A stretch of 24,154 nt of DNA from positions 1 through 24,154 of IMG/VR virus record IMGVR_UViG_3300009152_000203; one strand, 5' to 3'. Position numbers and translations under genes: made by a program. The notes beneath the pieces are model-generated. The model did no database searches and had not been told where the DNA came from. It was given only the letters and a program-made list of their open reading frames with translations. The number at the start of each line of letters is the position of its first letter. Position 1 is the first letter of the stretch. This DNA comes from a virus. Of this stretch, positions 272 to 19,930 are shown piece after piece.

Positions 272-1405
272 ATGTCAGTTGTCCTTGCCGGAGAAAGCAG
301 CGGAATTGTCCTGCTTACAGAACCATTTTCTGGTGGTGTTACTACGGTTAGCTTTGGGTCTACGGGATTAACCCCCAATACCGCAACAGGCGGTGTAGTT
401 ACGGTAGCCGGTACTTTGGCTGTTGCTAGTGGTGGCACTGGAGTTACAGCGTCTTCTGGTGCAAACTCGGTAACTTTGCGTGACGCTAACGGAAACATCA
501 CTACCAACGCTACGTTCAACGGATTTACAAGTGTCGCCGCGTCTGGAACTTTAATCACGCTGACGGCGGCATCAACGCCTGTATATAACGTCACGGGTTC
601 TGGTGGACAAGTTATTCAGTTGCCAAACGCAACCACATTACCAAACGGCACAATCTTTTCGTTCAACAACAACCAGTCTAGCGGCGCAATAACCGTAAAT
701 AATGCTTCGTCTACGCTAGTTGTTTCTGTTCCTTCTGGCGGGTATGTAACAGTTGTTCTGTTATCAAATGCAACCTCTGCGGGCAGTTGGGACAGACATG
801 ACCAGACTCCTAGCAACACTTCGTGGTCAACGAATACCCTTGACTATCCCGGTTCTATTACGTCAGCAACGTGGAACGGGGTTGCAGTAGCTCCAAACAG
901 AGGTGGCACTGGCGTAGCAAATAACACAGCCAGCACGATTACCATATCTGGGGCTTTTGGAACAACACTTACGGTTTCCGGCACAACCGCTGTTACGTTG
1001 CCTACGACGGGAACACTTGCGACTCTAGCTGGAGCCGAGACGTTTACCAGTAAGACGCTGACCAACCCAACGATTACAAACTACACTGAAACCCGATATG
1101 CGGCGACGGTTACGGGTAATGCGATCACGCTTGATTTGACCAACGGAACCTTTCAAACCATTACGACAATGGTTGGAGCAAATGCGATCACGCTGCCTGC
1201 GGTTGCGAGTGGGAAGTCTTTGACGGTGCAGGTGCTGTACGCCTCGACGCCTACGACGTTGACGTTTGCCACGCCATCTGGAACGCTCAAGTGGCCCGGA
1301 GGCACGGCTCCAACAGCTACGCTGACCAACACAAAGTACGACTTCTACACCTTTATTTCTGATGGCACAAACTGGTACGGGATTCAATCAGGGGCAAACT
1401 TCTGA
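272..1405 (+). CDS. Tail fibre-like virion protein with GGTGV repeats
   Basis: This 377-residue protein is Thr/Ser/Gly/Val-rich, with no catalytic motifs and almost no Cys. It contains the fibre-type boxes ASGGTGV (about residue 53) and NRGGTGV (about residue 210). The same box recurs in the tail fibre at 9673-11334, and it is common in phage fibre shafts and side domains. The last roughly 95 residues are beta-rich, from LDLTNGTFQTI to a DGTNWYGIQSG ending, and look like a separate domain often seen at fibre ends. The start is ATG 272, preceded by AAGGGG at 261-266. The stop overlaps the next ATG by one base, so it should be translated together with the propeller gene. Its role would be outside the particle, on the tail. 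The fibre identity is inferred from composition and motifs. Confidence 0.7.
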   Translation: MSVVLAGESSGIVLLTEPFSGGVTTVSFGSTGLTPNTATGGVVTVAGTLAVASGGTGVTASSGANSVTLRDANGNITTNATFNGFTSVAASGTLITLTAASTPVYNVTGSGGQVIQLPNATTLPNGTIFSFNNNQSSGAITVNNASSTLVVSVPSGGYVTVVLLSNATSAGSWDRHDQTPSNTSWSTNTLDYPGSITSATWNGVAVAPNRGGTGVANNTASTITISGAFGTTLTVSGTTAVTLPTTGTLATLAGAETFTSKTLTNPTITNYTETRYAATVTGNAITLDLTNGTFQTITTMVGANAITLPAVASGKSLTVQVLYASTPTTLTFATPSGTLKWPGGTAPTATLTNTKYDFYTFISDGTNWYGIQSGANF

Positions 1406-2451
1406 TGTTTTCAACCAGTAAGTTTTTTAGAAAGCCTAGCAGCGGCGGCGCAAGTTCCTCTATTGTAGTGTCAAACAGTACAAGCCCATATATTTACGCA
1501 TTTCCTTGGGCTTCTGGTACTGGGTTTGGAACTAAATATGCAAATCCATCAGTTCTTCCATCTAGCGCCGCATACGCTGGCCCTAGCGTTGCATTTAGCA
1601 GTAGTGCAGTAGCCATTGCGTTTTTTGGGGCGTCACCATATATTAACGTTTACCCTTGGACTTCTAGTACTGGGTTTGGAACTAAATACGCAAACCCATC
1701 CCCAGTTATAGGCGGGGTAGCGATTGGTCCAAGATTTAATCCGGCTGAGAATGTTATTGCTATAGGAATTGATAGCTCTCCATATATTTCTGCTTATCTT
1801 TGGTCTGCTGGATTTGGGACTAAATACGCTAATCCATCTACGCTACCAACCGGTTATGGGGTAGAGGCAGCATTTAATTCTGCAGGGACTGCAATAGCAG
1901 TTGCTCACGGTACGTCTCCATATATTTCAACTTATCCTTGGTCTACTGGTTTTGGCACCAAATATGCAAACCCGTCGACCTTGCCGACTGGTACAGGAAA
2001 CGGCGTAGCATTTAGTCCTGCTGGTAATGTTATTGCAATAGCTCATCAGACGTCTCCATATATTACCGCCTACCCTTGGTCTGCTGGATTTGGGACTAAA
2101 TATGCAAACCCGGCTACATTGCCAGCTAGCAACGGAACCGCCGTAAACTTTAGTCCTTCAGGTAGTGCTATTGCAGTATCACATACTTTTTCTCCGGCTA
2201 TTCGAGTTTATGCTTGGTCTTCTGGAAGCGGCTTTGGAACTTTATATACAGGCCCATCTCCTACAATATCAAGCGATTCATACAGTGCTGCGTTTAATGC
2301 TGCTGGCACTGATATTTGCATAGGAATAGCTACTTCACCTTTTGGGGTTGCTGCGCACCCTTGGTCAGACGCTACTGGTTTTGGAACTAAATATGCAGCC
2401 CCAGTTGGTCTGAACACTGGTGCAACAGCGGGCATAAGATTTTCACCTTAA
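1405..2451 (+). CDS. Seven-repeat beta-propeller virion protein
   Basis: After a 26-residue leader, the 348 residues consist of seven repeats of 46-50 residues, starting at residues 27, 77, 125, 171, 217, 263 and 311. The consensus opening is SPYIxxYPWSxGFGTKYANP, followed by a variable turn and a strand pair such as AFSPAGNVIAIAH. This is the layout of WD40-like blades. The seventh repeat ends at FSP and lacks its last strand. Residues 16-26 (ASSSIVVSNST) match the missing segment and would close the ring. No enzyme residues are evident, so a binding or decoration role on the tail is the likely job. The gene starts at ATG 1405 in a TGATG overlap with the fibre gene before it. It is visibly AT-richer than most of the window (22 G+C in 60 bases at 1741-1800, counted by hand), which may indicate separate acquisition. 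No symbol is known to me. Confidence 0.85.
   Translation: MFSTSKFFRKPSSGGASSSIVVSNSTSPYIYAFPWASGTGFGTKYANPSVLPSSAAYAGPSVAFSSSAVAIAFFGASPYINVYPWTSSTGFGTKYANPSPVIGGVAIGPRFNPAENVIAIGIDSSPYISAYLWSAGFGTKYANPSTLPTGYGVEAAFNSAGTAIAVAHGTSPYISTYPWSTGFGTKYANPSTLPTGTGNGVAFSPAGNVIAIAHQTSPYITAYPWSAGFGTKYANPATLPASNGTAVNFSPSGSAIAVSHTFSPAIRVYAWSSGSGFGTLYTGPSPTISSDSYSAAFNAAGTDICIGIATSPFGVAAHPWSDATGFGTKYAAPVGLNTGATAGIRFSP
1483..2448 (+). repeat. Seven tandem propeller blade repeats
   Basis: Degenerate direct repeats of 138-150 bases begin at 1483, 1633, 1777, 1915, 2053, 2191 and 2335. The best-kept DNA segment encodes GFGTKYANP, and it varies at third positions between copies. The copies are therefore old enough to have diverged in DNA while the peptide was kept. 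The middle three units are exactly 46 codons each. Confidence 0.9.
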
Positions 2452-2834: not shown

Positions 2835-3095
2835 ATGGCTAAATCTCCTGCATGGCAAAGAGCAGAAGGAAAGGACCCCAAGGGGGGTCTGAATGCGAAG
2901 GGACGCGCGTCCGCGAAATCACAAGGGATGAACTTAAAGCCCCCCGCCCCGAAACCAAAAACGAAAGAAGACGCCGGGAGAAGGAAGAGCTTCTGTTCGA
3001 GAATGGAAGGCATGAAGTCGAAACTTACCTCAGCGAAAACAGCCAAAGACCCAAACAGCCGGATTAACAAAAGCCTGAGGAAGTGGGCATGTTAA
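2835..3095 (+). CDS. Small highly basic phage protein (DUF6321-like)
   Basis: This 86-residue protein has 23 Lys/Arg against 6 Asp/Glu by hand count. It begins with PAWQRAEGKDPKGGLNAKGR and later has RRKSFCSRMEGMK and a C-terminal LRKWAC. I recall this arrangement (PAWQ... GGLNAKGRAS... KSFCxRM... RKWxC) as a small protein common in marine and freshwater phages, filed as DUF6321. The number is from memory. Function is unknown; the strong positive charge would suit contact with DNA or an acidic protein surface. It starts two bases after the preceding stop and overlaps the nuclease gene downstream by seven bases. The two cysteines are at residues 54 and 86. Confidence 0.8.
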   Translation: MAKSPAWQRAEGKDPKGGLNAKGRASAKSQGMNLKPPAPKPKTKEDAGRRKSFCSRMEGMKSKLTSAKTAKDPNSRINKSLRKWAC

Positions 3096-3529
3096 ACACA
3101 AAACGTGACTGGGGAAGAGTTCCCAAAGCTCCTGACGGGCAGGGAAGATATCGTTGTAGCAAATGCAAAGAGTGGAAACTTCCAACCGCGTTTAATAAAA
3201 ACAAGACCCAAACTTCGGGCTTGTCGTATGCGTGTAAATCTTGCACAAAAGTAGAAGTGCGTAAGTACAACTTACCCGCAAAGTATGGTATATCTGCGGC
3301 TCAGTTTGCTGAAAAACTTTTGGCGCAAGGCGGAAAATGTGCGTGTTGCTCCGTAGCGTTTGATATCGAAGGAAAAATATCAGACCGCCCTTGCGTAGAC
3401 CATAACCACATCACCAATGAAGTTCGTGATTTGCTGTGCAGTCGGTGTAATTTGGCGGCTGGAAATGTGGGTGACAGCTCTTCTCGTGCTGAACAGTTGA
3501 TGTCATACTTGAAAAAGTGGAAGTGCTGA
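3089..3529 (+). CDS. Endonuclease VII-like HNH/His-Me finger nuclease (copy 1)
   Basis: This 146-residue protein carries the recombination endonuclease VII pattern: C84-x2-C87, then VDHNH with D104-H105, then C117-x2-C120 followed directly by N121. In the T4 gp49 family the cysteines bind structural zinc, and the Asp-His and Asn positions form the metal-dependent active site that cuts Holliday junctions and other branched DNA. An extra N-terminal pair of CxxC motifs (C23/C26 and C49/C52) could form a second zinc site. I chose ATG 3089 over GTG 3083 because GAGGAAG at 3077-3083 is correctly spaced before the ATG. The gene overlaps the preceding small basic gene. Likely jobs are debranching DNA before packaging or acting as a selfish endonuclease; the sequence does not decide between them. 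A second, divergent copy is at 12011-12451. Confidence 0.85.
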   Translation: MLNTKRDWGRVPKAPDGQGRYRCSKCKEWKLPTAFNKNKTQTSGLSYACKSCTKVEVRKYNLPAKYGISAAQFAEKLLAQGGKCACCSVAFDIEGKISDRPCVDHNHITNEVRDLLCSRCNLAAGNVGDSSSRAEQLMSYLKKWKC

Positions 3530-8889: not shown

Positions 8890-9663
8890 GTGGCTGAAGG
8901 CGGGTGGGGTTCCGGTGGATGGGGCATATCCGCTTGGGGTGGGTCTGGCTATGACCGCGCCGTTGCAGAAACGGCAAGCGGTGTGGACTCAATATCCGCA
9001 GCGCAATTATTTGTCTCGGCTGTTGCAGAGGCCGCGAGCGGTGTCGATTCTATTTCTTCAAGTGTTTTTTTATTTGGCGTTGTTTCTGAAACAGCGGGCA
9101 TTGCAGATGTCCCATCAATCCAAGCAGTTTTTTATTCTGACCTTAGTGAAGCTGCCAGTGGTATTGACTCGGTTTCTGCCAATTTTATTTTATTTAGTTT
9201 TGTTTCTGAGGCAGCAAGCGGAGCAGATGTCTTATCGGCTGTTCAGTTGTTTGCGTCAGCTATCGCTGAAGCGGCAAGTGGCGTCGACTCGCTTTCTCCC
9301 AATTTTGTTTTCTTTGCCGCTGTTGCAGAAGCGGCAAGTGGGGTTGACGCAGTTTCTGCGGCGCAGTTATTTAGTTCTTCTCTTGCCGAAGCGGCTAGTG
9401 GTGTTGACGCGGTATCCGCTGCACAAACTTTTGCAACAAACATTTCAGAAACTGCCAGCGGGGCTGACTCGGTATTGGCAGTCGTTGCTTTTTATTCAGC
9501 GGTTGCCGAAGCCGCTGGGATTTCTGATTCTGTTATTGCCGCGTTCCTTTGGAACTTGATCGACGATTCACAGACACCAAACTGGGCCGCAATAAACAAT
9601 ACGGAAACCCCAAACTGGTCTACAATCTCCACGGGCCAAACGCCGAACTGGACCGACATCTAA
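8890..9663 (+). CDS. Repeat protein: GW-rich head, ten 20-residue repeats, TPNW tail
   Basis: This is a 257-residue protein in three parts. Residues 1-23 are Gly/Trp-rich (GGWGSGGWGISAWGGSG). Residues 24-222 are ten units of 20 residues with consensus AVAEAASGVDSVSAAQLFxS. Residues about 223-257 are three 11-residue units built on TPNW (QTPNWAAI, ETPNWSTI, QTPNWTDI). The exact spacing suggests a regular extended shaft or solenoid between two anchoring ends. It starts at GTG 8890, with AAAGGA seven bases upstream; no in-frame ATG gives the Gly/Trp head. It lies between virion structural genes and the tail fibre, so a thin tail spike or linker role is likely. The overlapping frame from 8882 is a by-product of the 60-base periodicity. 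Confidence 0.8.
   Translation: MAEGGWGSGGWGISAWGGSGYDRAVAETASGVDSISAAQLFVSAVAEAASGVDSISSSVFLFGVVSETAGIADVPSIQAVFYSDLSEAASGIDSVSANFILFSFVSEAASGADVLSAVQLFASAIAEAASGVDSLSPNFVFFAAVAEAASGVDAVSAAQLFSSSLAEAASGVDAVSAAQTFATNISETASGADSVLAVVAFYSAVAEAAGISDSVIAAFLWNLIDDSQTPNWAAINNTETPNWSTISTGQTPNWTDI
8959..9558 (+). repeat. Ten tandem 60-base units
   Basis: Ten in-frame units encode 20-residue repeats around AEAASGVDSVS. Copies differ at many third positions and in the hydrophobic last five residues. They are divergent protein repeats, not a recent DNA expansion. Units 2, 7 and 8 are closest to the consensus, and units 3 and 10 the most divergent (AGIAD, AGISD). Confidence 0.9.
9571..9660 (+). repeat. 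Three 33-base units encoding TPNW repeats
   Basis: Three C-terminal units have an 11-residue period: Q/E-T-P-N-W-x-x-I plus a three-residue linker, with the last copy truncated at the stop. I recall TP-x-W boxes at the ends of several aquatic phage tail proteins. They may be docking peptides. Confidence 0.8.
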
Positions 9664-9672
9664 GGATTTGAA

Positions 9673-11334
9673 ATGGCTACTTCGTATACGTCGCTTATTG
9701 GGCTTGCGTTGCCAGCAACCGGAGAGTTGTCCGGTACGTGGGGCGACACGGTTAACAACTACATATCTACCTATATTGACTCGGCAGTTGCTGGGTCCGT
9801 GACCGTCACGACCGATACCACGCTCACTAAGACTACGGGTTCAAGTCTTGGGTCTACGTCCTCTCAGTACGCCATCATCATTGCGTCCCCGGCGTCGGCC
9901 AATATCACCATCACGGCCCCGGCAGCAAGCAAAGCCTACATAATTAACAATACGTCAGGGACGTACACGGTCAAGATTGTTGGCGCTGGACCCACGACGG
10001 GAGTAACGCTCCTTGCCAGTGAAAAAGCAATTGTTGCTTGGAACGGCTCGGACTTCGTAAAGGTTGCCTCGACTTCGGCTACTGTCATTAATTCTGGCTT
10101 ATTGGCGGTTGGTTATGGTGGGACAGGAGTTACCACCTCAACGGGTTCGGGGAGCAACGTCCTATCGACTTCTCCAACACTTGTAACTCCGGCGCTTGGC
10201 ACCCCCGCCAGCGGTGTTCTTACGAATGCTACTGGGCTGCCTTTAACCACCGGCGTTACGGGAACTTTGCCAATTGCTAACGGTGGAACGGGGCTGACCA
10301 CAACCCCAGCAAACGGCGCATTGGACATTGGTAATGGTTCAGGATTTACGCGCACTACGTTGACTGCTGGTTCTGGAGTAACAATTACCAACAGCGCGGG
10401 TGGAATTACGATTGCGGCATCTGGTTCTGGCGGAACTGTTACTTCTGTCACGGGAACTTCGCCCGTTGCATCTTCTGGCGGTTCAACTCCTGCGATTAGC
10501 TTGGCGGCCAGCTACGGGGACACCCAGAATCCATATGCATCAAAGACAGCAAACTACGTTTTAGCTGCACCCAATGGTTCCGCTGGCGCTCCTACATTTA
10601 GAGCAATTGTCGCTGCGGATATCCCAACGCTGAATCAAAACACGACTGGCACCGCTGCCGGATTGTCAACCGCGTTAGCGGTTAGTAGTGGAGGAACTGG
10701 GCTGTCGTCAACCCCGGCAAACGGGGCGTTAGATATTGGTAATGGTTCAGGATTTACACGCACTACGCTGACCCAAGGTACTGGAATAACCATCACCAAC
10801 AGCACAGGTTCAATTACAATTGCTGCGACGGGTGGTTCAAGTGGGCTTGTCTTAATATCTTCAGGTAGTGTGGGAGCTGTAGGTGCATTCACTCTAACAA
10901 GTGGTCTTAGCAACACATATACCAATTATAGACTTATTTTTTCAAACCTTCTTTCGACCTTTGGCGGTAGTTACCCTGTTAATCTTCAATTTTATACCGG
11001 CGGTGCTGTTGATAGCAGTAGTAATTACGCTTATCAGCAGATGACATTAAATGCTTATGTATATAATGTTGCTTCTGCAACTACTCAGACGTCTATTCCT
11101 ATAATGGCTGGTGTTCCTTCTGTTACCTCACCAAATTCAATAATTATGGATATAAATCGAGTAAATGGATTAGGTACAAGTGGGTTTATTTCTTCAAATA
11201 CACATCCAAATGAGCAAGGCCTCTTGACTACTTTTGGTTATAAAAATACAGGCAGCATTACAGGAATTTCTATTAGTGTTAATGCGGGTAATCTTGGTTC
11301 CACCGGTACATACACACTTTATGGGTTTGCATAA
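9673..11334 (+). CDS. Tail fibre protein, 553 aa
   Basis: The N-terminal anchor reads [20 protein letters not shown], followed by [16 protein letters not shown] recall this opening from many phage tail fibre proteins. A beta-rich shaft follows with the boxes [24 protein letters not shown] and [14 protein letters not shown]. The shaft includes two 48-codon copies (10282-10425 and 10690-10833) with 40 of 48 residues identical. From about residue 391 the sequence changes to an Asn/Tyr/Ser-rich tip ending [10 protein letters not shown], with a strong drop in G+C. This would be the host-contact domain. ATG 9673 has AAGGA at 9662-9666. The stop overlaps the next ATG, which begins a tail assembly chaperone gene, matching the usual fibre-chaperone pairing. 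No lyase or hydrolase motif is visible. Confidence 0.8.
10282..10425 (+). repeat. Fibre shaft repeat, copy 1
   Basis: This 144-base unit encodes GGTGL, then [20 protein letters not shown], then a TITNS...ITIAASG strand pair. It matches copy 2 at 10690-10833 in length and in 40 of 48 residues. It is preceded by the related, shorter GGTGV box of the same protein. Confidence 0.85.
10690..10833 (+). repeat. Fibre shaft repeat, copy 2
   Basis: This is the second 144-base copy of the shaft unit. It sits immediately before the AT-rich tip region, so the boundary between shaft and tip coincides with the end of this repeat. Such a repeated border would be a natural place for recombination between fibre tips. 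Confidence 0.85.
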
Positions 11335-12010: not shown

Positions 12011-12451
12011 ATGCCATCTTGCGCTGTATGTACTGGAGAGTTTGCCAGAGAGGACCTTATTGTTCATGGTCGCAGGGACTATTTTCTCTGTAGCGCTTGT
12101 AAATCAGACATAAACCGACTTGACCGGTTCGGGTTGTCACCGTCAGATTATGACTTCCTGTTGAAGCTTCAGGGGTATAATTGTGCTATCTGTGACAACC
12201 CCCTCAAACTTAAACAGTACAAGTTTGCGGTAGACCACTGCCACGACTCTGATGATGTTCGTGGGATTTTGTGTGTGCGGTGTAACACAGCGCTAGGTAG
12301 CTTTGACGATGACCCGGACATGATCCTGCGAGCCGCAGAATACTTGAACAACCCGCCAGCCTTGGGTAGAGTCAAGAAACATGACGGGCGCAAAAAAGTT
12401 TCGTTTCTCCGGAGTGAGTACATCAGGAGGCACGGAGGTAGCAATGGCTAA
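12011..12451 (+). CDS. Endonuclease VII-like HNH/His-Me finger nuclease (copy 2)
   Basis: This 146-residue protein carries C58-x2-C61, VDHCH with D75-H76, and C88-x2-C91 followed by N92. This is the zinc and active-site arrangement of the recombination endonuclease VII family. An N-terminal CxxC pair (C4/C7 and C27/C30) may bind a second zinc. Overall it shares little with copy 1 at 3089-3529 outside these motifs, so the two are old relatives or separate arrivals. It extends past the nuclease core with a basic tail (RVKKHDGRKKVSFLRSEYIR). ATG 12011 follows a hairpin whose 3' arm contains the only plausible ribosome site, so translation may be limited by folding. The end overlaps the endolysin gene by eight bases. 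Confidence 0.85.
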   Translation: MPSCAVCTGEFAREDLIVHGRRDYFLCSACKSDINRLDRFGLSPSDYDFLLKLQGYNCAICDNPLKLKQYKFAVDHCHDSDDVRGILCVRCNTALGSFDDDPDMILRAAEYLNNPPALGRVKKHDGRKKVSFLRSEYIRRHGGSNG

Positions 12452-15841: not shown

Positions 15842-18800
15842 ATGGCGGATAGTTGGCAAGCGGGATATGACACCCTTCTTAAACAGATGGGTGCGGTTCA
15901 AGGGAAAGCGGACGTTTACAAAAATGCGTCCCCTCTGTCCGCCGATACGCACATGCAAAACATTGCCAAAATTTTGGCAAAAGATTATGGTATTACCAGT
16001 ATTGGTGATATCGGTGTGCGGTATGAAACTCGCCCTGCTTATGAAACAGGAAGCGATGAATCTCGCACGATCATCCCAGAAGAACAACTACCGGTATACT
16101 ATAACAAAAACAATCCTGACCAAATAATTTCCGCCTATAACAAAAAGTTTGGTTCTGAGAACGAAGGCGAAGGATTTAGCGAATATAATTTTCAGCCGGT
16201 TTCAGACGGGAAAGGTGGCACAATTGCCTTGCCTGTTCAGCAATATAGCAAATCTGGGATAGGCGCACTTGCCCAAGATCTTGGGCCGGTTATGTCTGTG
16301 GTCAATCTAGCACTTATGGCTGAAGGGGTTCCACCCCTTTACGTAGCCGCAGGTAACGTAGCATTCCAAGGTGCCGCTGGGAACATCCATAATATTGGAG
16401 ATGTACTACGAACCGCAGCGCCCGTTTTGGTTGGTGGCCCCGGAATTTTGGGTGATGCAGCTAAAGTCTATATGGCGTACGACGCCTTTGATAAAGGTAA
16501 TGTACTTAGTGGGCTGTCTAGCCTCGCCAGCGCCGCTGGTATAGGTGGGTTGGCTAGTGAACTTCGATTTATTGCCGCAATAAAAGATGGAAACTTACCC
16601 GGAGCGTTGACAGCTTTCGGTGGTATGTTCAATATTCCGCTAAAAGATGATTTAGGGAAGATAATTAAAGATGCAGATGGTGTAGTTCAAACAATAGGGA
16701 ATTTTAAAATTGCTGGGGGGGCCGACGACTATATTACTGTGAAAGATGTAGTACAGGGCGCAAGTATTGCTGCCAACTTATTGTCTAGCAAACCAAATTA
16801 CGGGCTGGCTATTCAGATGGCCGGGGACCTTGCTACCAGTAAAGACACAATTCTAGCGGGTAGAGCTGTATCTTTATTGGAAGCGGTCGCTTCTGAGAAT
16901 CCCAGTGCTATTAACAATGCGGTTCTTAGCCTCGCTGGTCAGGTTAATAAGAAAGCTCCCGGCTCGGCCCCAATTGAAAACAGAACCGCAAATGCTGCGA
17001 TTGCTGCGGCGACTGCACCTGATACTTCTGCTGCGGCTAACCAAGCCATAGCCAACGCGGACCCACTAAGTAATCTCACTGCAACAGATCTTGTAGCTAG
17101 AAACGCAGGGAACCAACTCACACAAGAACAAATTGCGGAGTTAAATGTTGCAAACGCCAGCGGTCTTCTTCAAGCAGACTTAGGTACAGGTGCTAAGTTA
17201 GGTACCGTAAATGTTACCGGGTCAACCCCTTCTTTTGTAAATGACGACACGATAACAGCGGGGGATATAAAGTTAACGTCCCCAATTAGTCAACTTACGG
17301 CTAATCAAATTGCTGCACTTACCTCTACCAATTTAACCTCTTTAAATACCAAAGTTGCCCCCGCACTAACCTCTGTACAAGTTACGGGTCAGAAAGAAGC
17401 TATTGGTTTAAATGATGACACTCTGACGGATACAGGTATAAAAGATACTACTGGTGGAAAAAAAGTAACTCTTACGTCTGCTCAAATAGCCGCGCTTACC
17501 TCCGGGAATCTTACGTCTGCTCAAATAGCCGCACTAGACACCAAGGCTACTAATACGTTAGATACCGTAACAGTCAGGGCTACAGCAGATCTTATTGGTG
17601 CGAATAACGACACATTGACGGATACAGGCACAAAAACCACTTCGCAGATAACTAAGCTTACGTCTAGTCAGGTAGACGTAATTTCAACAGATAAAATCAC
17701 CACGCTTTCAACAGATAAAATCACCACGCTTTCAACAGATAAAATTACTACGCTTCCAACAGATAAAATCACCACCCTCACTTCTAATCAAATCGCTACC
17801 GGTACATCAGGGTCAACTGTTCTTACGTCCGACCAAATTGGTGCCATAACTACAACGCCAGCTCGTGGACTGCAAGCACTACCGACTTCTGAAGCACGGT
17901 ATTGGCGTCAGACTGGGGCACAGGGAACTGGTGGCAAAGGTGGTGTTAGGTTCTTTGACTGGTACGATACGCCTGAAAACAGGACAATGGCCCCCCCTGC
18001 AATGACGACGGCGACTTTTGGGGCGTTAACATCTCAACAGGTACCTATTTTAAAAGGTGGTGGTAAAGTGAAAGATCTATCTTCAAACGAAATGGTGCAG
18101 CATTTTGCTGGCGGCGGGGTATCTACTTCGCCTTCAGAGGATATCGGACATCTCCTGTGGCGTGTTGGTATAAACCGATATATGGCAGATGGTACGCGGA
18201 CCGACGATTACGCCAGAATGGAAATTGATGAGGCTGCAACCATACTGCGAAGCTATGGTATAAACCCTACCGGAATGCACGCAAGAACAGTGGCTAATGA
18301 AATACGAAAATTATTTCCTGATGTTCCCCATATTACAGTTATGGGTGATTTCGTATCTCCGCAATCCGCTACAGGTGGTGGTGCGACGGGAGGTGGTACA
18401 ACGACAGGTGGAACTACAGGAATTGCAGGAATTGCGGGGACTACGGGGGCCGCAGGAACGGCTGGAGCGGGGAAATCGCTTAGCGTAATAAGTCATACTA
18501 TTGCTCAATCTGCGCTATCAAGTAAGGGCCTTGATCCGTCAAAAATGTCTTATGCGCAGATGTCGGCTGAATTAGAGAAATTATATCCCGGTGAGAAGTT
18601 TAATATTGTTACGGACACCGGAACTACAAAAACTACAGGAACCACAGGCGGAACCACAGGCGGAACCACAGGCGGAACCACAGGCGGAACCACAGGCGGA
18701 ACCACAGGCGGAACAACGACAGGAACTACAAGCCCGGCTACGCTTACATCCAGCCAACTTCTCGCATTAACCACGACTCCAGCGTTAGGTCTACAGTCAT

Positions 18801-19930
18801 TGCCGACTTCTGACGTGCGTAAAGTAATATTACCAGCGCCGGTAACTACAACAGCGCCGGTAACTACAACAGCACCGGTAACCACAACAACACCGGTAAC
18901 TACAACAGCACCTGTAACTACAACAGCCACCGCTGCAACCGCCCCTACGGCAAAACAATATTTCAATCAAGCAACGAATCGATATTACACAGACCCTACC
19001 GGAACATGGCAACCCCCCGCCGGTTGGACTCAAACAGGACTAAAAGGCGGTGGCGAAGTGGAAACTAAACATTTTGATGGCGGTGGGGATGTTAGTTACG
19101 GGTACGACTGGGCAGAAGATCCTAGCTACGCTGATTACAGTCTGGGGATAGACCCCGGAGTTATGAACACCGACTATTCTAATATTTTTGACTATGATAC
19201 AGGAATTGACAGTACCGCTGCTGGCAATTTTAATTACGAAGAAGACACTCTTACCCCTGCGCAACGTGAAGACTTAAATAACGCGCGTTGGGAAAGCGGC
19301 TACTTTGGGACTGAAGAGGATATAGCTAAAAATTACGGGAACGAAGGTAGGGCATACTCGGGCGAGAACGCTATAGACCCGGTAACGGGCAGTCCAATAA
19401 ATGCAAAAGTTGGCGTCCCTACTAGATCTCTCAAACCCAACCCACTCAAAGGTTTAGCCGATGCGGCTAAAAAGAACCCAGACCTAATGAAGATGCTGCT
19501 GGCCGCTGGGCTTGGCGGTCTTCTTGGTTACGCAGGGCGTCCAAAAGGTTTTAACCCTAAGGGTATGCAGGGGGGTAGCCTTGGTCTTAGCCAAAGCCAA
19601 GTCCATGGCGCTCTCAAGGGTGTGCCGGTTCAACGTGCTGAAGGTGGTGAAATTGATGGTTACGCTGGAGGCGGTGGATTGCGTTACCTCAAAAGCGCAG
19701 AGGACGGCATGGCCGACAAGATTCCTGCTACCATTGACAACAAGCAACCGGCGAAACTTAGCGGTGGTGAGTTTGTAATCCCTGCCGACGTGGTATCTCA
19801 TTTAGGAAACGGCAACTCTGAGGCCGGTGCTAAACAACTTTATGCCATGATGGACCGCATCCGTCACGCCCGCACCGGTAATAAAGAGCAGGGCAAGCAG
19901 ATTAACCCGGCTAAATTTACGCCAAAATAA
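15842..19930 (+). CDS. Giant repeat-rich virion protein, 1362 aa
   Basis: I chose ATG 15842 (MADSWQAGYDTLLKQMG); GTG 15824 is in frame but overlaps the previous gene. The first 120 residues look folded. Residues about 130-420 are Ala/Gly-rich helical sequence with hydrophobic patches, as in ejected internal virion proteins or tape measures. Residues 450-700 hold repeated LTSxQIxAL boxes and an 8-residue TTLSTDKI array. GTTG (933-956) and APVTTT (999-1028) tracts follow. Six GG boxes are spread through the second half (ILKGGGKV, HFAGGGVS, LKGGGEV, HFDGGGDV, AEGGEIDGY, GYAGGGGL). The last 55 residues hold GGEFVIPADVVSHLGNGN and MMDRIRHARTG, an ending I recall from many aquatic phages. Its activity is unknown; an internal or tail-lumen role is inferred from neighbours and composition. 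Confidence 0.7.
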   Translation: MADSWQAGYDTLLKQMGAVQGKADVYKNASPLSADTHMQNIAKILAKDYGITSIGDIGVRYETRPAYETGSDESRTIIPEEQLPVYYNKNNPDQIISAYNKKFGSENEGEGFSEYNFQPVSDGKGGTIALPVQQYSKSGIGALAQDLGPVMSVVNLALMAEGVPPLYVAAGNVAFQGAAGNIHNIGDVLRTAAPVLVGGPGILGDAAKVYMAYDAFDKGNVLSGLSSLASAAGIGGLASELRFIAAIKDGNLPGALTAFGGMFNIPLKDDLGKIIKDADGVVQTIGNFKIAGGADDYITVKDVVQGASIAANLLSSKPNYGLAIQMAGDLATSKDTILAGRAVSLLEAVASENPSAINNAVLSLAGQVNKKAPGSAPIENRTANAAIAAATAPDTSAAANQAIANADPLSNLTATDLVARNAGNQLTQEQIAELNVANASGLLQADLGTGAKLGTVNVTGSTPSFVNDDTITAGDIKLTSPISQLTANQIAALTSTNLTSLNTKVAPALTSVQVTGQKEAIGLNDDTLTDTGIKDTTGGKKVTLTSAQIAALTSGNLTSAQIAALDTKATNTLDTVTVRATADLIGANNDTLTDTGTKTTSQITKLTSSQVDVISTDKITTLSTDKITTLSTDKITTLPTDKITTLTSNQIATGTSGSTVLTSDQIGAITTTPARGLQALPTSEARYWRQTGAQGTGGKGGVRFFDWYDTPENRTMAPPAMTTATFGALTSQQVPILKGGGKVKDLSSNEMVQHFAGGGVSTSPSEDIGHLLWRVGINRYMADGTRTDDYARMEIDEAATILRSYGINPTGMHARTVANEIRKLFPDVPHITVMGDFVSPQSATGGGATGGGTTTGGTTGIAGIAGTTGAAGTAGAGKSLSVISHTIAQSALSSKGLDPSKMSYAQMSAELEKLYPGEKFNIVTDTGTTKTTGTTGGTTGGTTGGTTGGTTGGTTGGTTTGTTSPATLTSSQLLALTTTPALGLQSLPTSDVRKVILPAPVTTTAPVTTTAPVTTTTPVTTTAPVTTTATAATAPTAKQYFNQATNRYYTDPTGTWQPPAGWTQTGLKGGGEVETKHFDGGGDVSYGYDWAEDPSYADYSLGIDPGVMNTDYSNIFDYDTGIDSTAAGNFNYEEDTLTPAQREDLNNARWESGYFGTEEDIAKNYGNEGRAYSGENAIDPVTGSPINAKVGVPTRSLKPNPLKGLADAAKKNPDLMKMLLAAGLGGLLGYAGRPKGFNPKGMQGGSLGLSQSQVHGALKGVPVQRAEGGEIDGYAGGGGLRYLKSAEDGMADKIPATIDNKQPAKLSGGEFVIPADVVSHLGNGNSEAGAKQLYAMMDRIRHARTGNKEQGKQINPAKFTPK
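17471..17532 (+). repeat. LTSAQIAAL direct repeat
   Basis: A 23-base segment starting CTTACGTCTGCTCAAATAGC occurs at 17471 and again at 17510, 39 bases apart (13 codons). Degenerate relatives (LTSxQI or LTANQI) occur several more times between 17290 and 18770, so the exact pair is a recent duplication within an older repeat field. Confidence 0.85.
17684..17779 (+). repeat. Four tandem 24-base units (STDKITTL)
   Basis: Units start at 17684, 17708, 17732 and 17756 and encode S/P-T-D-K-I-T-T-L. The first two are identical in DNA (TCAACAGATAAAATCACC plus ACGCTT); the others differ by a few bases. The length keeps the reading frame. Confidence 0.9.
18638..18709 (+). repeat. Six perfect 12-base units (GTTG)n
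   Basis: GGAACCACAGGC is repeated six times without a mismatch and encodes Gly-Thr-Thr-Gly. Degenerate units flank it on both sides, and a similar Gly/Thr tract lies at about 18370-18420. Perfect identity indicates recent slippage or strong homogenisation. Changes in copy number would keep the frame. Confidence 0.95.
18836..18925 (+). repeat. Five tandem 18-base units (APVTTT)
   Basis: GCGCCGGTAACTACAACA and near copies are repeated five times, encoding Ala/Thr-Pro-Val-Thr-Thr-Thr. The first two copies are identical in DNA and later ones have a few substitutions. Together with the GTTG tract it makes a Thr-rich linker. Confidence 0.9.

Follow-up and report, generated by a model that had tools for sequence, protein, structure and literature searches.

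A seven-bladed propeller encoded behind a phage tail-fibre gene: a probable receptor-binding tip from a protein family of environmental phages

Introduction

Beta-propellers are found among the receptor-binding parts of phages, where Gp45 of Staphylococcus phage phi11 is known to act in this way and P2 of PRD1 and gp131C of phiKZ have been proposed to do so (PMC4901313). In other phages the tip adhesin is gp38, the product of a separate gene that sits on the fibre (PMC12892980). Here we describe a gene on the plus strand of a 24,154-nucleotide stretch of viral DNA (IMG/VR virus record IMGVR_UViG_3300009152_000203, positions 1 to 24,154; this whole stretch is called the window below). The gene (1405..2451) directly follows a gene for a fibre-type protein, and its product of 348 amino acids (aa) is predicted to fold as a closed seven-bladed propeller, which probably serves as the receptor-binding tip, or adhesin, of the tail fibre that the upstream gene encodes.

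With phi11 Gp45 the protein would share the use of a propeller as a receptor-binding platform, but Gp45 has five blades within a single chain with stem and tower, and a 1-3 closure; phiKZ gp131C is seven-bladed (PMC4901313), and its absence from the PDB matches listed for our model is no evidence against similarity. The likeness to gp38 of T2, PP01 and S16 lies in a separate fibre-tip product that carries hypervariable loops on a constant scaffold (PMC12892980), but gp38 is a poly-glycine II sandwich without a propeller, and the propeller family is also found fused to the fibre. Because its predicted fold is a propeller and not such a sandwich, the protein is an analogue of gp38 and not a member of the gp38 family, its adhesin role being a prediction. 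Its closest solved relatives, by profile (2YMU) and by fold (7BID), are WRAP/2YMU, the highly repetitive WD40 propeller of Nostoc, and the engineered WRAP-T set. Like 2YMU, in which 14 repeats form two rings, the phage family has amplified, near-identical blades; unlike 2YMU/WRAP, which are cellular and naturally closed 1-3, it is predicted to close 3-1 and lacks the WD and GH signature residues.

Results

The open reading frame (ORF), from the ATG at 1405 to the stop at 2451, contains seven DNA-level copies of a repeat with a 65-nt core, spaced by 150, 138, 138, 144, 138 and 147 nt. They encode repeats of 46-50 residues with the consensus GVAFSPxGxAIAVAHxTSPxIxAYPWSxxGFGTKYANPATLPTGxGx, in agreement with the seven repeats that an earlier prediction, made from the letters of the DNA alone, had read by eye. 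That original prediction also proposed a closed seven-bladed propeller, which structure prediction bears out. An AlphaFold2 model, run with an alignment of 34 relatives, is a confident seven-bladed propeller (predicted local distance difference test, pLDDT, 88.9; predicted template modelling score, pTM, 0.88), and the PDB matches listed for it are propellers or propeller-containing complexes, the best of them seven-bladed rings. The sole stretch below pLDDT 50 is the N-terminal tail (residues 1-14; 1405..1446), which starts with MFSTSKFF, as does the closest relative (locus L002), and is a candidate peg into the fibre. By DSSP, the order of strands is b-c-(d), then six a-b-c-(d) blades and a single terminal strand a at 341-346, the fourth strand being short in most blades. 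Strands b, c and d of the putative closing blade (residues 18-48; 1456..1548) are placed by the DSSP strands at 18-24 and 30-36 and by the alignment to 7BID, which begins at residue 18. The repeat family and DSSP then give blade 2 (residues 60-98; 1582..1698), blade 3 (104-144; 1714..1836), blade 4 (150-190; 1852..1974), blade 5 (196-236; 1990..2112), blade 6 (242-284; 2128..2256) and blade 7 (290-333; 2272..2403). Finally, strand a of the closing blade (341-346; 2425..2442), supported by DSSP and by the C-termini of relatives, would lie innermost and lock the ring; in complete relatives the C-terminus falls within a few residues of GVAF.

WD40 proteins are usually closed by an outer 1-3 arrangement, and it was a closure of this kind that had been expected for the window protein, with an N-terminal strand pairing with a last repeat that stops at FSP. 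The stop at FSP was read correctly, this motif falling in strand a, and the N-terminal closing strand also stood, residues 18-24 forming strand b of the closing blade, but the closure itself appears to be 3-1. The best chain found by VIA-align is 7BID (v31WRAP-T, an engineered Velcro 3-1), with Z 37.5, 1.9 A and 285 of its 286 residues aligned to residues 18-348 of the model. Since this 3-1 permutant of WRAP-T aligns most fully (285 residues vs 277 for the 2-2 form, from residue 26, and 266 for the 1-3 form 7BIG, from residue 43), the modelled ring is assigned an inner 3-1 closure, with N-terminal b, c and d and C-terminal a, and not a 1-3 closure of the WD40 type. In the 3-1 arrangement three N-terminal strands and one C-terminal strand close the ring near the central cavity (PMC8458387). 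Pairing of residues 18-24 with 341-346 would follow from the DSSP strands and the end-to-end superposition on 7BID. The model also matches lactonase and YVTN folds (1l0q, Z 33.6; 1ri6, Z 33.7).

Repeat number was then considered across the family. Among the 80 best loci, whose ranking against a seven-repeat query may have biased the counts, the repeat number is 7 or 14 almost throughout, with a single case of 21 and an exception in L011 (8 repeats). A recount used 96 complete ORFs from loci picked by one short motif, irrespective of repeat number. The machine count gave 73 with 7 repeats, 13 with 14, one with 21, one counted as 23 (L172) and eight others; on reading, four of these eight (L112, L126, L164 and L186) have seven repeats, with degenerate copies that the scan had missed. 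Multiples of seven thus account for about 92 of the 96 (77 with 7, 13 with 14 and two with about 21, L172 being taken as 21), and the remaining exceptions are L088 (6), L188 (6), L142 (4) and L134 (9). L088 looks frameshifted; L011, L134, L142 and L188 may reflect assembly collapse or be real. Proteins with 14 or 21 repeats carry an irregular linker (e.g. VAWSTVGDPK...) that returns after each seventh repeat. One 14-repeat protein (L063) is predicted to form two rings, both of which start at a strand b and finish at a strand a. Over about residues 16-348, ring 1 matches seven-bladed chains, and ring 2 (354-681) covers 7BID in full (286 residues, Z 39.7). This quantisation at 7, 14 and 21, read from repeat counts, agrees with a closed ring independently of the structure prediction for the window protein, and ring closure would act in nature as a selection filter on repeat number. 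Together with the at least 597 relatives in viral contigs, the quantisation puts the repeat pattern well outside what chance would give. The L172 protein (1971 aa) has about three propeller rings of degenerate repeats and then ~900 residues made of a different repeat (KLTATLQTYALTGTATGL).

The gene upstream (272..1405) encodes a fibre-type protein of 377 aa, so named from its ORF, from its similarity to the upstream gene of L077 (41% identity over 154 residues, E 8e-20) and from the tail-fibre PHROGs matched by many upstream proteins of relatives. Its conserved C-terminal domain of ~100 residues, domain A (1079..1402; hidden Markov model match to residues 270-374 of 377), adjoins the propeller gene. 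In 42 of 50 unfused relatives the upstream protein ends in domain A or in a second domain of ~100 residues, domain B. Domain B also immediately precedes the propeller within a single chain in 16 fusion loci, which amount to 15 distinct proteins as L008 and L090 are the same contig; the separate domain B of L005 and the fused one of L008 share 51% identity over 101 residues (E 1e-30). The same domain thus occurs at the junction of fibre and propeller, both split and fused. Two further fusions join fn3 to a propeller (L032, L022). Profile comparison gave no link between domains A and B, and BLAST of the window upstream protein, which ends in domain A, gave no match to the fused N-terminus, since the fusions have domain B instead. 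The arrangement is also found in POR1, a cultured Pseudomonas siphovirus (PMC4911491), whose collagen-like Orf75 has a C-terminal domain A (E 1.2e-12) and is followed, with a 4-nt overlap, by the propeller Orf76 (TM 0.85 to the window model). The cultured Stutzerimonas phage ZRG1 has the propeller as well. On a prophage-like contig of Pararhodobacter sp. CCB-MM2 a tail-fibre gene occupies the same position.

Blades are 65% identical within a protein and 57% between proteins. Between proteins, identity is the same for blades of the same number (0.571) and of different numbers (0.569), and after removal of close relatives the values are 0.643 within a protein and 0.562 and 0.561 between proteins (same and different number); for 126 of 480 blades the nearest relative is another blade of the same protein, vs 1% by chance. 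Blade orthology, with a fixed role for each blade, is rejected by the equal identity at same and different positions. Repeated amplification or homogenisation gives the same pattern in other propellers (PMC9218822). The silent-site difference between blades of one protein is about 0.40 throughout, and the amino-acid-site difference reaches 0.42-0.56 at blade columns 3, 5, 21 and 22 and is lower elsewhere. The ratio of the two (pN/pS), calculated from raw proportions in blade-to-blade comparisons within a protein, is 1.0-1.4 at these four columns only and below 0.75 at the others, indicating hypervariable loops on a constant scaffold, as in tip adhesins. The four columns lie just before strand a or just after strand b, i.e. 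in the d-a and b-c loops (P 0.0019, position alone). The opposite face, with its a-b and c-d turns, is under constraint (pN/pS 0.01-0.47). Because an antiparallel meander brings its d-a and b-c turns together on one side, the fast-changing residues, four per blade and about 28 per ring, would share a face. RVT_1, the reverse transcriptase that variation driven by diversity-generating retroelements would call for, was found in none of 24 records, which may be fragments.

By itself, the window protein gives nothing significant in Pfam, PHROGs, NCBIfam or PDB (phmmer), and it can be assigned to a family only with a profile of its relatives. This profile matches 2YMU (E 2.4e-24). Pfam WD40 is matched by 9 of the 34 relatives (best E 2.8e-7) and not by the window protein alone; Pfam lactonase is matched weakly by one of the 34 (E 0.0099). 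The GH...WD signature and the His-Ser-Asp-Trp network were not found: strand c has the sequence AYPWS, in which Trp is not followed by Asp, and no GH precedes strand a. Because these signature residues are absent, the protein is classed, on its sequence, as a WD40-related propeller and not as a classical WD-repeat protein.

The family is large and poorly named, and belongs to environmental, largely aquatic, phages. Viral contigs contain at least 597 relatives; among 84,980 species genomes of bacteria and archaea there are only 15 loci, almost all of them on contigs of metagenome-assembled genomes (MAGs); when five of these 15 were checked for phage neighbours, four (L207, L210, L213 and L216) were found to adjoin tail, portal or further propeller genes. 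In the MAGs of Tepidiforma (L206) and Fimbriimonadales (L214) the propeller has as neighbours the same two genes without matches (669 and 530-551 aa) and no recognised phage gene, and may belong to an unknown element or have a cellular use. Members are already in databases, but under repeat-type names or as unknown function: the 'WD40/YVTN repeat-like-containing domain' proteins of uncultured Caudovirales (A0A6J5SDD4, 44% identity, E 1e-35), the 'wD40 repeat protein' of MW202701 (51% identity), PHROG 19311, which matches 20 of the 34 relatives (best E 1e-31), and PHROG 10655 are the same family. A limited search of the open-licence literature found no paper on the family, the 7/14/21 rule or the fibre linkage, and the database names are likewise silent on location and one-faced variability.

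Discussion

The fold, the closure, the ring number, the order of fibre domain and propeller in split and fused form, and the one-sided loop variability have direct support, and from them we infer a location at the fibre tip, a docking mode, a ligand and a binding face that coincides with the variable one. The fibre trimer would end in its small domain A or B, on which the short disordered N-terminus of the propeller, or a face of the ring, would dock, so that the face with the b-c and d-a loops would point toward the cell. A rigid framework would stay constant, and two short loops per blade would vary, allowing the disc to be retuned to new surface ligands in the manner of T2/S16-type gp38, whose scaffold is quite different. 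The original prediction had rightly placed the protein behind a fibre gene and had suggested a binding head on the tail; fibre-domain linkage and one-faced loop variability make such a head likely.

Several points weigh against this role. No binding or virion data were found for any family member; the pN/pS values come from pairs of blades that are not independent; the placement of the variable loops on one face is deduced from the strand order of the model; and the one family match of the window upstream protein itself is weak (phrog_5596, unknown function, E 1e-3). Moreover, the stop of the upstream gene overlaps the propeller ATG by 1 nt (TGATG), and the ATG lies at -1 or -4 in 42 of 75 loci, but this overlap was dropped as evidence of coupling, several other gene pairs in the window overlapping likewise.

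The main rival to a tip adhesin is a tail-fibre assembly chaperone, comparable to T4 gp38 or Tfa, which would help the upstream fibre to trimerise and then be lost or kept as a cap. Genes for such chaperones typically lie directly downstream of the fibre gene, often overlapping it, and gp38 is a chaperone in T4 but an adhesin in T2 (PMC12892980). We nevertheless consider a chaperone unlikely, as neither hypervariable loops on one face nor 14- and 21-blade forms are expected of it and the fusions of fibre domain and propeller speak against it. It is decidedly improbable that the ring is a structural spacer or decoration that binds no receptor and whose loops drift neutrally: the loops on the opposite face show constraint (pN/pS 0.01-0.47) and the propeller is placed at the fibre end, even though relaxed constraint also gives a pN/pS near 1 and propellers do serve structurally in phage tails, as in the SU10 nozzle (PMC9509320).

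An enzymatic fibre domain, lactonase-like or glycan-degrading, that cuts a host surface polymer could be imagined from the seven-bladed 6-phosphogluconolactonase and YncE/YVTN folds among the best matches, and tailspike propellers with sialidase activity exist, as in K1F (PMC4901313). Yet no blade stands out by position (0.571 vs 0.569), so there is no fixed catalytic blade, and the conserved residues are framework residues that recur in every blade, with no invariant non-repeated cluster; an enzyme is accordingly given very little chance. The remaining alternative, a recently captured host protein of WD40/YVTN type with an intracellular role in infection, draws on base composition and on the few MAG loci (L206, L214) with no recognisable phage neighbours. 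The propeller gene is AT-richer than the window, as had been noticed, though modestly (GC 45.4% vs 49.7%; GC at third codon positions, GC3, 0.27 vs about 0.4-0.58 for most neighbours), and about 8% of equal-length stretches of the window match or exceed it in AT-richness. Across 50 loci the propeller GC3 is below that of the upstream gene in 37, with a mean difference of only -0.07; low GC3 is no general trait of the family. The cellular origin at which the earlier reading had hinted is thus not supported, and, the family being centred on phages and fused to fibre domains, capture for such a role is hardly credible.

If the propeller is indeed a fibre-tip adhesin, the family might, more tentatively, represent a major class of receptor-binding proteins that has gone largely unrecognised among environmental phages, one in which a single blade is amplified to exactly 7, 14 or 21 copies and homogenised, about 28 positions per ring diversify on one face with no retroelement, and the ring can be exchanged from one fibre type to another, either as a gene of its own or as part of a fusion. 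It is difficult to identify the receptor-binding proteins of uncultured phages, and the family offers a fold, a rule of position, with the propeller after fibre domain A or B, and defined variable positions, from which host-range determinants could be read in metagenomes. Two or three propeller genes occur on some phage contigs (L086, L112, L135, L141, L143, L073/L076, L207), which suggests several tips per virion or alternative tips.

Elsewhere in the window, a 257-aa protein (8890-9663) with about nine degenerate ~24-residue repeats (ASGVDSVSAAQLFxxxxAEA) and no PHROGs match appears to be a second repeat protein, and precedes a second fibre-type gene (9673-11334; PHROG 31660 tail fibre, E 4e-5). 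The 3' half of the latter and the next small gene are much AT-richer (GC down to 0.35), making recent exchange more plausible for this region than for the propeller gene. Two genes (3083-3529 and 12011-12451) have, by eye, an HNH/endonuclease VII-type look (VDHNH...RGILCxRCN motifs), and the gene of a 1368-aa protein contains short tandem repeats at 17682-17775 (24 nt), 18638-18730 (12 nt) and 18834-18932 (18 nt).
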